A DNA stretch of 64,000 nucleotides from Crocinitomicaceae bacterium (lineage in GTDB: Bacteria > Bacteroidota > Bacteroidia > Flavobacteriales_D > Crocinitomicaceae), in contig JAURMI010000022.1 of the NCBI GenBank assembly GCA_030830785.1, positions 186,001-250,000 of the forward strand, read 5' to 3'. Both the position numbers and the translations under genes were made by a program. Position 1 is the stretch's first letter, and every line of letters begins with the position of its first letter. The notes beneath the pieces are model-generated. The model had not been told where the DNA came from. It saw only the letters and a list, made by a program, of their open reading frames with translations, and searched no databases. Positions 26,491-48,187 of the stretch are shown piece after piece.

Positions 26491-27510
26491 CTAGATTGAA
26501 TCTTTGGATTTGGCCTCTACTAATAATGAAAGTAAAATAGACGTAGCTAAAGCACCTAAGACTATCGACATAGAAAGGAAAGCATCTAGGTGAAAAAATG
26601 GTGCAACAATCATTTTTATGCCAATAAAACCTAAGATAAAAGCCAAACCATACTGAAGCATCTTGAATCGATGTATTGAATTGGCGAGTAAGAAATATAA
26701 TGACCTTAATCCGAGAACAGCAAAAATATTGGATGTATAGAGTATCATAGGATCGTTTGGCGCAATAGTCAAAACTGCAGGAATAGAATCTATAGCAAAA
26801 ATCAGGTCCGTGGTTTCAATAACGATAAGCACTAAAAACAATTTTGTAGCAAAGTGTTTTGCCCCTTTTTTAACAAAAAAGCGATCACTATGAAAGTCTT
26901 TAGTAACGGGAAAAACCTTGCGAACAAGTCGCGCACCAAAAGAACTATTATAGTCCTTTTCGTTAACATGATTGGAATTAAACATGCTTTTTATTCCAGT
27001 AAATAAAAGAAATGCTCCAAATAAGGTTAGGATTAAATTAGGCCTGTAAAAAAACCCGTCTTGCAAGTTCATTCCTTGATTTAAACTAAAATGATAACCA
27101 AATAAATCGAAGGAAGGCAAGTAAGTTAATTGAATGAGTCCGATTCCAGAAAAAATAAATATAGCTCTAAATATTAGTGCGCCAAGGATGCCCCAAAATA
27201 AGACCCTATGCTGTAATGATTCATCAAGTTTAAAAAACTTAAATACAAGAATGAATACGAACATATTATCAACTGACAGTGCCTCCTCAATCCAATAAGC
27301 TGACTGATATTCAGTAAATTTGGTGAAGCCTAAATTCCACCAAACCAATGCACTAAATCCCATAGAAAGACCTATCCAAATAAGCGTCCAGCGAAGGGCT
27401 ACTTGGTTTGAAATAGAGCTGTTTTTTTTATGTACTACTCCTAAATCAATTACAAGCATCGTCACAATAACGACACAAAAAATAAAGAGCAACCAAAAAT
27501 TGGAAAACAT
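26491..27510 (-). CDS. TerC/Alx-family integral membrane protein
   Basis: A polytopic membrane protein of 339 residues with about nine hydrophobic segments. TerC-family intramembrane acidic motifs are present: YWIEEALSVDNMFVFILVFKFF and LVLIVIETTDLIFAIDSIPAVL. The size and the FKLDESLQHRVLFWGILGALIFRAIFI segment fit the longer Alx/TerC subgroup, whose studied members export manganese or respond to alkaline stress. I use ATG 27510; the in-frame start at 27546 lies upstream of the -7 box. It converges on edd. It is a distant paralogue of the protein at 3895-4641. Confidence 0.9.
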   Translation of the reverse strand: MFSNFWLLFIFCVVIVTMLVIDLGVVHKKNSSISNQVALRWTLIWIGLSMGFSALVWWNLGFTKFTEYQSAYWIEEALSVDNMFVFILVFKFFKLDESLQHRVLFWGILGALIFRAIFIFSGIGLIQLTYLPSFDLFGYHFSLNQGMNLQDGFFYRPNLILTLFGAFLLFTGIKSMFNSNHVNEKDYNSSFGARLVRKVFPVTKDFHSDRFFVKKGAKHFATKLFLVLIVIETTDLIFAIDSIPAVLTIAPNDPMILYTSNIFAVLGLRSLYFLLANSIHRFKMLQYGLAFILGFIGIKMIVAPFFHLDAFLSMSIVLGALATSILLSLLVEAKSKDSI

Positions 27511-27524
27511 GCAATTTGTTTGTA

Positions 27525-27532
27525 CAAAGTTA
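27525..27532 (-). promoter_or_regulatory. -7 box of the TerC/Alx gene, abutting a terminator
   Basis: Minus-strand TAACTTTG (plus 27525-27532) matches TAnnTTTG, 14 bases upstream of ATG 27510. It begins where the T tract of the upstream subtilase terminator ends, so the -33 region would lie inside that hairpin. Confidence 0.6.
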
Positions 27533-27571
27533 AAAATGAAAGCCACATGAGTTTCATGTGGCTTTCATTTT
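27533..27571 (-). terminator. strong hairpin terminator of the subtilase gene
   Basis: A perfect 18-base-pair inverted repeat with a three-base loop (27551-27553) lies 16 bases after the subtilase stop. The outer pairs are A/T, so the minus-strand transcript has A-rich sequence, the stem, then TTTTT. The core stem includes AGCCACATGA and its complement. It could also stop transcripts from the plus strand, where edd read-through would be antisense. Confidence 0.85.
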
Positions 27572-45595: not shown

Positions 45596-46177
45596 ATGAA
45601 ATTTCAACAACAACACATATTCAAATCTAAACTTGATCCAAAAAAAGGCTGTATGCTCCTAGCCGATCCGCTCTTGGACGAGGCTTTTTTTCAAAGGGCC
45701 GTGGTGTTGCTCATAGATCATAGTGTTGAGGAAAGTTTTGGTTTAGTTTTAAATCATGTCACCGATGTCAAATTAAGTGAATTATTTGAAGACATTGATC
45801 TGGATTTAGCTGTATTCAATGGGGGGCCTGTTTCTCCACAGCAATTGTTCTATTTACATCGCTTTTCTCAAATTGAAGGAAGCTTAAAGGTTGGAAAAGA
45901 CTTATATTTTGGCGGCAATTGGCGGCAAGTCATAGAACGTGCAAATAAAATGAACAAACCACATTTATACTTACGCGTTTTTGCTGGATATTCAGGTTGG
46001 GGAGCTCAACAACTTGAAAATGAAGTGTCTGAACGAGCATGGCTATGCATTTCTCAGGCAGAGAATGATTCAATTTTTAAAATCAAAGTAGAAGATCTTT
46101 GGAAACGACTTTTATTGAACCAAGGGCCAGAATTTAAAATTTTTGCACACTTTCCGCTGCAAGTATCAGATAATTAG
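45596..46177 (+). CDS. YqgE/AlgH family protein
   Basis: A cytoplasmic protein of 193 residues in the UPF0301 family. Characteristic segments are GCMLLADPLLDEAFFQRAVVLLIDH, EESFGLVLNHVTDVKLSELF, NGGPVSPQQLFYLHRF, DLYFGGNWRQVIE and RVFAGYSGWGAQQLENEVSERAWL. The biochemical role of the family is not established. The in-frame non-ATG start about 15 bases upstream is rejected. rpsA follows on the same strand but with its own promoter. Confidence 0.92.
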   Translation: MKFQQQHIFKSKLDPKKGCMLLADPLLDEAFFQRAVVLLIDHSVEESFGLVLNHVTDVKLSELFEDIDLDLAVFNGGPVSPQQLFYLHRFSQIEGSLKVGKDLYFGGNWRQVIERANKMNKPHLYLRVFAGYSGWGAQQLENEVSERAWLCISQAENDSIFKIKVEDLWKRLLLNQGPEFKIFAHFPLQVSDN

Positions 46178-46211
46178 CCCCCTTTTTAGTATAATTTCAA
46201 GTATTTATACC

Positions 46212-46219
46212 TACCTTTG
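46212..46219 (+). promoter_or_regulatory. -7 box of rpsA
   Basis: TACCTTTG (46212-46219) matches TAnnTTTG. Transcription should begin near 46224, leaving an untranslated leader of about 90 bases before ATG 46315, much longer than for other genes in the window. Confidence 0.7.
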
Positions 46220-46232
46220 CACTCTCGAAATT

Positions 46233-46286
46233 AAAAGTGTTCCCTGAAAACACCTTTTATGTTTAACATCTTTCTGATATTCAGGG
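46233..46286 (+). promoter_or_regulatory. candidate structured rpsA mRNA leader with possible pseudoknot
   Basis: AAAAGTGTT (46233-46241) pairs with AACAcCTTTT (46249-46258), giving a nine-pair stem with one bulged C at 46253 and a seven-base loop CCCTGAA (46242-46248). The whole loop is perfectly complementary to TTCAGGG at 46280-46286, 31 bases further on. A hairpin-loop pseudoknot, or a switch between two pairings, is therefore possible upstream of the rpsA start. Autoregulation by S1 is inferred from other bacteria; nothing here proves it. Confidence 0.5.
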
Positions 46287-46314
46287 TATTAGAAATACAA
46301 ATTTTTATAGCCTT

Positions 46315-48102
46315 ATGGCAAAAAATATCGAACCCCACGGAACAGTAGATTTCGATTGGGAAGCCCTACAACTTGATGGTTACAATCAAATTGAGCGCTC
46401 CGAACTAGGAGATCGCTACGAAAAAACCCTTACTTCTATTATGGAAAAAGAAGTAATTCAGGGCACTGTTGTAATGATCAACAAAAAAGAGGTTATCATT
46501 AACATTGGTTACAAATCAGAAGGTGTCGTAGCTGCCAATGAATTTCGTTACAATCCAGATTTAAAAATTGGTGATACAGTTGATATCTATGTAGAATGCT
46601 TAGAAGACAAAACTGGTCAATTAATCGTTTCACACAAAACAGCACGTATGCATAGTGCTTGGATTAGAGTGAATGATGTATTGAAAACTGGTGAAATTAT
46701 CACTGGTTATGTAAAATGCAGAACAAAAGGCGGGTTAATCGTTGATGTTTTCGGAATCGAAGCCTTTTTACCAGGTTCTCAAATTGACGTTAAGCCTATC
46801 CGTGACTACGACGTTTATGTAGGAAAAAACATGGAATTTAAAGTTGTTAAAATCAATGAGGAATTCAGAAATGTTGTTGTATCTCACAAAGCCCTTATCG
46901 AGGCAGAACTCGAAGAACAAAAGAAACAAATTATCTCTGGCCTAGAAAAAGGTCAAGTTTTGGAAGGGGTTGTCAAAAACATCACTTCTTATGGTGTATT
47001 TATAGACCTAGGTGGTGTTGATGGACTTATCCATATTACTGATCTTTCTTGGGGCCGTGTTACACATCCTGAAGAAATGTTAGAGCTCGATCAAAAAATC
47101 AATGTTGTAATATTGGATTTTGACGATGATAAAAAACGCATTGCACTCGGATTAAAACAATTACAACCGCATCCATGGGATTCTTTAGATGCAAATTTAA
47201 ATGTTGGAGATAAAGTTTCTGGTAAAGTAGTAGTAATGGCCGACTACGGTGCATTCATTGAAATTGCTGCTGGTGTGGAAGGTCTTATCCACGTCTCTGA
47301 AATGAGTTGGTCTCAGCACTTGCGTTCTGCTCAAGATTTCCTAAAAATTGGTGATTCAGTAGAGGCGGTGGTTCTGACTTTAGACCGTGAGGAGCGAAAA
47401 ATGTCCTTGGGTATCAAACAATTGATGCCAGACCCATGGAATGACATTGAAACAAAATATGCCGTTGGGACTAAGCACAGTGCCAAAGTACGCAATTTCA
47501 CCAATTTTGGTGTTTTTGTTGAACTCGAAGAAGGTGTTGATGGACTCATCCACATTTCAGATCTTTCTTGGCAGAAAAAAATCAAGCATCCATCAGAATT
47601 CTGCAAAGTTGGTGATGCTATGGAGGTTCTAGTTCTTGAAATTGATCGTGAAAACCGCAGAATTTCTTTAGGTCACAAACAACTTGAAGAAAATCCGTGG
47701 GACGTTTTTGAATCTACATTTGCAGAAGGCACCACGCACAGTGGAACGATTATTGAAATGAAAGATAAGTCTGGTATTGTTGCCCTACCATACGGTGTTG
47801 AAGGGATTTGTCCTTCTAAACATTTAAAGAAGGAAGATGGCACCAATGCAAAGGTGGAAGATACCCTAGAATTCAAAGTTATTGAATTCAATAAAGAGGC
47901 TAAAAAAATCGTTCTTTCGCATACAAGATTATTTGAGGAAGGTGATACAATGCCAAGCAATAACAGCAAAGGCAGCAAAAAATCATCCACAAACAATACT
48001 GATAAAGCAGTTAAAGCCATTAATCAAAATGCTGAGAAATCAACGCTTGGCGACCTCAATGCACTCGCTGAATTGAAGCAAAAAATGGACCGTGGCGAAT
48101 AA
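46315..48102 (+). CDS. rpsA: 30S ribosomal protein S1
   Basis: A 595-residue RNA-binding protein with six S1 (OB-fold) domains at about 48-115, 125-195, 213-285, 297-371, 384-457 and 470-540. Domains 3 to 5 show the strongest repeats (YGVFIDLGGVDGLIHITDLSW, YGAFIEIAAGVEGLIHVSEMSW, FGVFVELEEGVDGLIHISDLSW). A low-complexity serine/asparagine/lysine tail follows. S1 binds mRNA and helps initiation, which matters in Bacteroidota because Shine-Dalgarno sequences are weak. It has a dedicated promoter, a long structured leader and a strong terminator, so it forms its own transcription unit. Confidence 0.97.
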   Translation: MAKNIEPHGTVDFDWEALQLDGYNQIERSELGDRYEKTLTSIMEKEVIQGTVVMINKKEVIINIGYKSEGVVAANEFRYNPDLKIGDTVDIYVECLEDKTGQLIVSHKTARMHSAWIRVNDVLKTGEIITGYVKCRTKGGLIVDVFGIEAFLPGSQIDVKPIRDYDVYVGKNMEFKVVKINEEFRNVVVSHKALIEAELEEQKKQIISGLEKGQVLEGVVKNITSYGVFIDLGGVDGLIHITDLSWGRVTHPEEMLELDQKINVVILDFDDDKKRIALGLKQLQPHPWDSLDANLNVGDKVSGKVVVMADYGAFIEIAAGVEGLIHVSEMSWSQHLRSAQDFLKIGDSVEAVVLTLDREERKMSLGIKQLMPDPWNDIETKYAVGTKHSAKVRNFTNFGVFVELEEGVDGLIHISDLSWQKKIKHPSEFCKVGDAMEVLVLEIDRENRRISLGHKQLEENPWDVFESTFAEGTTHSGTIIEMKDKSGIVALPYGVEGICPSKHLKKEDGTNAKVEDTLEFKVIEFNKEAKKIVLSHTRLFEEGDTMPSNNSKGSKKSSTNNTDKAVKAINQNAEKSTLGDLNALAELKQKMDRGE

Positions 48103-48122
48103 GCTGAATTTTCTATCGATTT

Positions 48123-48146
48123 AAGGGGGTCTCGGCCCCCTTTTTT
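48123..48146 (+). terminator. rho-independent terminator of rpsA
   Basis: AAGGGGG (48123-48129) pairs with CCCCCTT (48136-48142) around a six-base loop, followed by a run of T (48141-48146). It lies 21 bases after the rpsA stop and separates rpsA from the Fur-STAS-purA run. Confidence 0.92.
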
Positions 48147-48187
48147 ATTGTCTGTGTCCCAAATTTATAATTAACTTTAGCGTCTGA

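Follow-up and report, generated by a model that had tools for sequence, protein, structure and literature searches.

A candidate ribosomal protein S1 leader with covarying kissing loops upstream of rpsA in Crocinitomicaceae and their order

The leader of Escherichia coli rpsA forms several hairpins, as does the leader described here. Gammaproteobacterial bS1 is reported to repress its own SD-less leader specifically and autogenously, in competition with 30S-bound bS1 (PMC10931766). The two leaders have in common the gene, the lack of a canonical SD, the presence of a specific fold in the initiation region and AU-rich single strands. The gammaproteobacterial operator belongs to another phylum, however, and is set apart by its description, the accessible part of which does not mention kissing loops (PMC10931766). 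Autogenous control is described there, whereas for the present leader it is a prediction.

The rpsO (uS15) operator of mycobacteria and E. coli also places a leader pseudoknot upstream of a small-subunit protein gene. On the E. coli 30S, S1 is reported to melt the rpsO leader pseudoknot and S15 to repress by hindering this melting (PMC3858243), while a compact kissing-loops form has been proposed for the Mycobacterium tuberculosis leader (PMC8470358). Gene and protein differ from those considered here and an SD is involved there, whereas the kissing pairs of the present element have covariation support.

Two described groups belong to the same phylum. The conserved r-leaders of Bacteroidia and Flavobacteria listed by Eckert and Weinberg (2020) serve L13, S4, S15 and S16, but none serves S1: neither S1 nor rpsA stands among the 20 rows of the summary table and bS1 occurs zero times in the main text, the two parts that this negative spans, 35 earlier leaders being placed in the supplement. 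Autoregulation of rpsU by bS21 in Flavobacterium johnsoniae is likewise reported as r-protein control at initiation in an SD-avoiding phylum, but there it operates via an extended SD and ribosomes without bS21 (PMC9976891).

The window analyzed here is the whole stretch of 64,000 nt from a Crocinitomicaceae bacterium (GCA_030830785.1, JAURMI010000022.1:186,001-250,000, forward strand). Its rpsA gene stands between a DUF179/AlgH-like gene, which ends upstream at 46177, and a FUR-family gene downstream; among solved structures, the closest chain to the encoded bS1 is 9zcd_A (E 6.2e-242). The features of the leader, with the evidence for each, are as follows.

46212-46219, + strand: promoter -7 element TACCTTTG, of the Bacteroidota TAnnTTTG type (sequence)
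46233-46258, + strand: hairpin 1 (H1), 5 bp plus 4 bp with one bulged C (sequence; closing stems of relatives against shuffles)
46242-46248, + strand: loop 1, CCCUGAA, kissing strand K1 (sequence and comparative tests)
46259-46270, + strand: AU-rich single-stranded linker from H1 to H2 (sequence)
46271-46295, + strand: hairpin 2 (H2), a stem of 9 bp whose outer CUUUC...GAAA is conserved (pairing and two-sided changes in 58 sequences)
46280-46286, + strand: loop 2, UUCAGGG, kissing strand K2, complementary to the whole of loop 1 (sequence and comparative tests)
46295-46300, + strand: AUACAA motif, at -20 to -15 relative to AUG (motif count near the start against shuffling)
46301-46309, + strand: AU-rich single strand, -14 to -6 from the start codon (sequence)
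46310-46319, + strand: start-codon mini-hairpin (H3), GCC-UUAU-GGC, whose loop includes the A and U of AUG (energy against shuffled upstream)
46315-48102, + strand: rpsA, encoding ribosomal protein bS1 (595 aa with six S1 domains)

Since the TAnnTTTG box would place the transcription start near 46224, the rpsA leader is predicted to be about 90 nt long. In F. johnsoniae, -7 boxes are reported to lie often 4 or 5 nt upstream of the transcription start, and predicted leaders to average 33 nt (PMC6847099). No canonical SD was found upstream of rpsA, 46296-46314 being without a purine-rich SD when inspected by eye. A likely intrinsic terminator, AAGGGGGTCTCGGCCCCCTTTTTTATT, is visible downstream of the gene at 48121-48147.

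The stem of H1 is formed by GTGTT (46237-46241) with AACAC (46249-46253) and by AAAA (46233-46236) with TTTT (46255-46258), C46254 being bulged. In H2, TTTCTGATA (46271-46279) pairs with TATTAGAAA (46287-46295) over 9 bp, one of them G-T. The first-pass annotation had proposed a pseudoknot in the rpsA leader between the loop CCCTGAA of a hairpin at 46233-46258 and TTCAGGG at 46280-46286. These coordinates are exact, and the proposal holds in that the pairing is conserved and covaries, but it missed that TTCAGGG makes up the entire 7-nt loop of another hairpin (46271-46295). Because K1 and K2 are both complete 7-nt hairpin loops, the contact would be an intramolecular kissing-loop complex; the topology is thus one of kissing hairpins, and the element reaches past the region first delimited to take in the AUACAA strand and the start-codon mini-hairpin at 46310-46319. 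An H-type pseudoknot was ruled out, the 3′ partner being itself a conserved hairpin loop. The 7-nt loops of ColE1 RNA I and RNA II are fully paired in the same way; they form an intermolecular antisense pair, whereas here both hairpins lie in one leader.

A plain nested fold of the leader contains both H1 and H2, the latter with two extra U-G pairs inside loop 2 (-19.2 kcal/mol, z -1.81; 11 of 200 shuffles equally good). As to the kissing pair, one of 300 shuffles of the window sequence was as good, and this p of only about 0.007 (p=0.007), uncommon and not decisive, is what can be said for chance complementarity. When the same test was applied to the upstream regions of 59 window ORFs (≥100 aa), three reached p≤0.05 and two p≤0.01, these two being the rpsA leader and an intrinsic terminator beside a mis-set ORF start. 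This terminator, AATGAAAGCCACATGAAACTCATGTGGCTTTCATTTTT, is a strong one at about 27531-27570 on the minus strand, and it overlaps the GTG start given for ORF 26491-27546.

The comparison covered 267 rpsA loci from the genus, the family, the order, the other orders of the class, further classes of the phylum and named contigs. The last group comprises 80 loci with S1 82-94% identical, the best 80 of 449, and these named relatives are mostly Crocinitomicaceae and Flavobacteriales MAGs. Usable 100-nt leaders without N were obtained from 260 of the 267 loci, and removal of near-duplicates left 176 representatives; L085, L155 and L160, which have no usable ATG, were left out. L098, a clipped region within a gene, was kept among the order representatives. 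L065 (from genome G032) is an order member, which counts with n=34 for the order and n=60 for the class place in the class.

L228 (CP034120.1), titled as a complete chromosome of Glaciecola amylolytica, and L177 (VHBC01000001.1), titled as a Sphingomonadales MAG, encode rpsA proteins 83% and 92% identical to the window S1, respectively, each behind a kissing leader, and the organism names on both records look wrong. A long Lys/Glu/Ala-rich N-terminal extension is carried by bS1 at several order-level loci, among them L027, L028 and L029. The rpsA open frames of order-level loci reach 919 aa, against 611 in the window.

In an alignment-free test, the best-scoring hairpin pair with complementary loops in each representative was compared with 300 dinucleotide shuffles. 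Values of p≤0.01 were obtained for 20/22 genus, 21/23 family, 14/17 named-contig and 27/35 order representatives; together, 82 of 97 non-redundant leaders reached p≤0.01 and 85 reached p≤0.05. The twelve above 0.05 are L013, L015, L027, L093, L095, L098, L100, L111, L113, L115, L196 and L225, and in some of them (L013, L015) a counterpart outside the stem rules used is visible by eye. Among other orders of the class, 15/59 passed p≤0.01 and 22/59 p≤0.05. Outside the class the figures were 2/20 and 7/20, and the distance of the hairpins from the start varied widely there; the 7/20 exceeds expectation, so either the shuffle test by itself is a little too permissive or structure of another kind is present in these leaders.

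A loop-swap test was made with H2 fixed by the AUAC motif and H1 by stem energy alone, both choices blind to kissing. It covered 111 representatives, the 65 of 176 without AUAC-anchored annotation being left out. Own loops paired with a mean of -9.45 kcal/mol, against -3.69 for loops swapped between genomes, and none of 2000 permutations reached the own mean; energies of -7 kcal/mol or below were found for 94/111 own pairs and 12.3% of swapped pairs. The stem closing the kissing strand averaged -7.7 (genus), -8.1 (family) and -7.9 kcal/mol (order), compared with -0.8, -1.2 and -0.9 in shuffled upstream sequence. A complement of loop 2 alone was significant at p≤0.05 in about half of the upstream regions (11/21, 9/21 and 15/32 for genus, family and order, respectively), and the complement together with its closing stem in 17/21, 16/21 and 28/32.

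Covariation, suggested by the first-pass annotation as a check, proved abundant in H2 and in the loop-loop helix. In A1, a MAFFT alignment of 58 leaders with AUAC among its selection rules, 71.3% of the kissing-helix cells are paired with two-sided changes at 7/7 pairs, and 88.0% of the H2 cells with two-sided changes at 8/9; the whole-structure score is 0.471, against 0.208 when shuffled and 0.07-0.24 when slid. A1 misaligns H1 (49.8% of cells paired), so the support for this hairpin comes from the alignment-free tests, which uphold it. A2 contains 67 leaders, matches from 94 sources, aligned on a model that includes the hairpins and omits the kissing. In its kissing helix, taken alone, 69.1% of cells are paired versus 52.7 in shuffles, the score is 0.458 (0.236 shuffled, 0.07-0.35 slid) and two-sided changes occur at 7/7 pairs. 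Two A2 measures, pairs changed on both sides and further pair types, showed no excess (476 and 214 of 500 shuffles as high, respectively); three other covariation measures exceeded the shuffles (0/500 as high).

Whereas these alignment shuffles ignore relatedness, a count on an S1 tree keeps it. With 54 proteins in the tree, the minimum numbers of exchanges between Watson-Crick pairs at the seven kissing positions are 7, 5, 6, 8, 13, 9 and 8, at least 56 in total; the tree is a quick one with weak inner branches, and rows that are non-Watson-Crick at a pair were omitted. Variants of the pair include CCCUGAA/UUCAGGG (window), CCCUGAU/AUCAGGG (L002), CUCCUUU/AAAGGAG (L018), GUUCGG/CCGAAC (L017) and, in another family, GCGGCA/UGCCGC (L026). 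Against chance complementarity thus stand the shuffles, the loop swap, the covariation, the closing stems and the exchanges on the S1 tree, and we give that reading practically no credence; the first-pass annotation had called the loop match unlikely to be incidental, and the comparative evidence puts the pairing far beyond chance. The two-hairpin kissing fold of the rpsA leader is, on this comparative evidence, very likely a genuine regulatory RNA element.

The spacing of the parts bears on how they may pair. Counts of linkers, helices, U tracts and promoter boxes refer only to leaders with H2 14-25 nt from AUG (20/22 genus, 21/23 family, 15/17 named contigs, 26/34 order). In these four groups the linker between H1 and H2 measures 8-21 nt (up to 30 allowed; medians 13-16) and the kissing helices 5-11 bp (median 6-7). 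Covariation is blind to pairing in cis or in trans, which leaves room for loop-loop pairing between molecules as an mRNA dimer; linkers of 8-21 nt are as expected for a cis contact, however, and between neighboring hairpins the cis contact would probably form first, so that we hold dimerization to be very unlikely. The complementarity of the K1 and K2 segments would also suit a mutually exclusive switch, in which they form an alternative long hairpin replacing H1 and H2. Yet H1, H2 and the kissing pairs use separate bases and are therefore mutually compatible, and the pairing shows no extension into the stems above chance: at helix ends abutting a stem, 29/91 could extend, where random bases expect 6 in 16. 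Helices stopping at the loop borders are as expected if H1, H2 and the kissing helix coexist, and we regard such a switch as extremely improbable.

With the AUAC-anchored annotation (91 annotated leaders; about 7-45 nt allowed), the distance from the end of H2 to AUG is 16-20 nt (genus), 16-22 nt (family), 17-23 nt (named contigs) or 16-25 nt (order). A terminator or attenuator was ruled out by the lack of a conserved U tract 3′ of H2: U5 within 14 nt was found in 3/20, 1/21, 0/15 and 2/26 leaders of these groups, respectively, the window leader having U5 at 46302-46306. A site acting at the DNA level is unlikely, since the loops pair with each other and the stems hold G-U pairs (142 versus 1298 Watson-Crick), a count that is weak as RNA-level evidence because the hairpin search itself allows G-U. 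A TAnnTTYG box was scored 0-40 nt upstream of H1 in 20/20 genus, 20/21 family, 15/15 named-contig and 26/26 order leaders; these are raw counts for representatives scored as bearing the element.

The AUACAA motif follows H2. The invariance of AUAC in A1 proves nothing, because AUAC was a selection rule of that alignment; the AUACAA count was made without this rule. No more than 45 nt from the start, the motif occurs in 21/22 genus, 22/23 family, 16/17 named-contig and 34/35 order leaders, hence 93/97 from genus to order, as well as in 24/59 from the rest of the class and 0/20 from outside it. Shuffling predicts AUACA in 1.0, 0.7, 0.4, 2.6, 4.1 and 0.4 leaders of these six groups, respectively, and AUACA precedes 2/48 window ORFs.

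Past the AU-rich strand lies the start-codon mini-hairpin. The GCC-nn-AUGGC start hairpin appears conserved inside the order, with weaker support than the kissing loops. Energies of -2.5 kcal/mol or below were obtained for 22/22 genus, 21/23 family, 16/17 named-contig and 26/34 order leaders (the clipped L098 being one of the order leaders), against 15-30% in shuffled-upstream controls for these groups. Elsewhere the counts were 22/60 for the class (control 23%) and 8/20 outside it (control 35%). In the window, GCC stands 2-4 nt upstream of 7/162 occurrences of ATGGC, and by the same measure 13/48 window ORFs have a comparable start hairpin.

Codon 2 is constant within Ala2 leaders, so covariation of the start hairpin rests on the contrast between Ala2 and Ser2. 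Some Ser2 leaders from other orders have an upstream strand altered to match AUGUCA or AUGUCU, as in UUCAGA-AUG-UCUGAG and UUGACGUA-AUGUCAG. Own pairing was found in 79% of Ala2 (n=112) and 41% of Ser2 leaders (n=27), against 16% and 14% upon cross-swapping, and a swap within Ala2 left the hairpin unchanged (0.79 own, 0.80 swapped). Four leaders from other orders of the class (L082, L087, L131 and L147) have no AUACAA and a strong start hairpin, UUGAC..AUGUCAG or UUCUGAUGUCAGAA, preceded by a common TTTAACCATTT or similar stretch. They may represent another type of S1 leader.

The distribution of the element was surveyed with R1, a covariance model built on family leaders, scoring up to 113 (genus) or 75 (order) first-look candidates per genome. 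The best match lay directly upstream of rpsA in 25/25 genus genomes, the present one included. Among 60 order genomes, matches at E≤0.01 were found in 17/18 family members and 1/42 others, all 18 at rpsA. As many of the scanned genus leaders were in the training set, the informative part is the absence of matches elsewhere: no credible match away from rpsA was found among the candidates scored in the 25 genus and 60 order genomes, those off rpsA (G025, G036, G039 and a second match in G003) having E 0.27-0.86 and being taken as chance. The silence of R1 beyond the family does not mean absence, since most such leaders show the element directly (27/35 in the order at p≤0.01).

Judged from these leaders, the kissing element is patchy outside the order and not recognizable outside the class. 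In other orders of the class, 12/19 motif-annotated representatives have an own loop energy of -7 or below, against 6.6% of swapped pairs (in a set of 20 including L065). By eye, L151 and L152 apparently keep the element with longer loops, and no trace of it was seen in L150, L153, L166 and L167. Comparison of the relatives establishes the fold, its conservation, its restriction to one gene within the scope of the R1 scan and its fixed distance from AUG. Three properties of an r-leader are found together here: a structure between the promoter box and the rpsA start, a consistent position at rpsA among the candidates scored, and covariation.

Kissing hairpins are found in metabolite sensors, a precedent for a leader that senses something other than bS1, be it a different ribosomal component, for instance uS2 or 30S without bS21, or a small molecule. 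The reported control of rpsU initiation by bS21 in F. johnsoniae points the same way (PMC9976891). Credible model matches occur at rpsA only, however, and at no metabolic gene; and the loop letters vary while their pairing is kept, so no fixed SD-like loop strand is conserved. A signal of this kind seems unlikely to us.

A search of the whole window with Rfam 15 returned tRNA only; a tRNA truncated at the window edge occupies positions 1-83 of the minus strand. For 46150-46400 at E≤5, Rfam gave three snoRNA matches far under gathering, so the region, as the first-pass annotation had proposed to check, matches no Rfam family. Among 18 of the 267 related loci searched, only Flavo-1 was returned: in L151, from another order, a Flavo-1 RNA (RF01705, 58.1 bits) lies at 674-749, upstream of the rpsA promoter box. 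An S1 leader is not named in the accessible parts of PMC8040213, PMC11109978 and PMC2704228. No published description of a Bacteroidota S1 leader was found among the matches listed, which present titles and the beginnings of abstracts and include few subscription journals or preprints. The earlier suspicion that such a leader is new has held so far, with no Rfam family and no S1 row in the table of the r-leader survey. The element appears to be a so far undescribed r-protein leader candidate for S1, with covarying kissing loops as its core.

We hypothesize that the rpsA leader is an autogenous translational operator sensing bS1, a reading that we consider probable. The leader would fold into two kissing hairpins (7 bp in the window), followed by the AUACAA strand and the start-codon hairpin. 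Free bS1 in excess would bind the kissing complex and the AU-rich flanks upstream of AUG, denying 30S-carried bS1 the single strand needed for opening the start-codon hairpin, and a surplus of bS1 would halt its own synthesis. With bS1 as ligand, repression as effect and translation as level, this operator model is drawn by analogy; it is favored because of the bS1/S1 leader precedents and the placement of bS1 domain 4 near the AUACAA/AU-rich strand. In Bacteroidota, SD pairing is reported to be unused and bS1 domain 4 to lie near mRNA positions -12 to -15 (PMC6847099), which adjoin that strand in the window leader.

Some observations speak against a bS1 operator. bS1 is mostly a single-strand binder, which leaves a kissing complex as its target unexplained, and many other orders of the class have rpsA but no recognizable element. 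McNutt et al. report only marginal effects of bS1 on rpsU mRNA, and the accessible part of their paper reports no test of an rpsA leader.

The main rival to the operator would be a positive element, that is, a 5′ stabilizer or a platform that keeps AUACAA open as a standby site for 30S-bound bS1. The kissing complex begins about 10 nt past the predicted transcription start and at a fixed distance from AUG, the start codon lies within a hairpin that must be opened, and in E. coli tisB a pseudoknot is reported to be essential for standby-mediated translation (PMC7708055), all of which would suit such a role. Specificity for one gene fits feedback better than a general enhancer, and we regard the positive element as doubtful, if less so than sensing of another signal.

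If the leader is indeed a bS1 operator, it might form a switch specific to Bacteroidota, in which rpsA starts only on bS1-carrying 30S and is shut off by free bS1. This stronger version is plausible, although we would put it at somewhat under an even chance. Structured r-protein leaders are already familiar as regulators, and in the literature searched none was found for Bacteroidota S1, nor any leader with a covarying kissing-loop helix as its core. The role of bS1 in Bacteroidota initiation is described as an open question (PMC6847099), for which the rpsA leader offers a ready, mutable test case. The switch, if true, would be a direct assay of the selection of SD-less mRNA by bS1.
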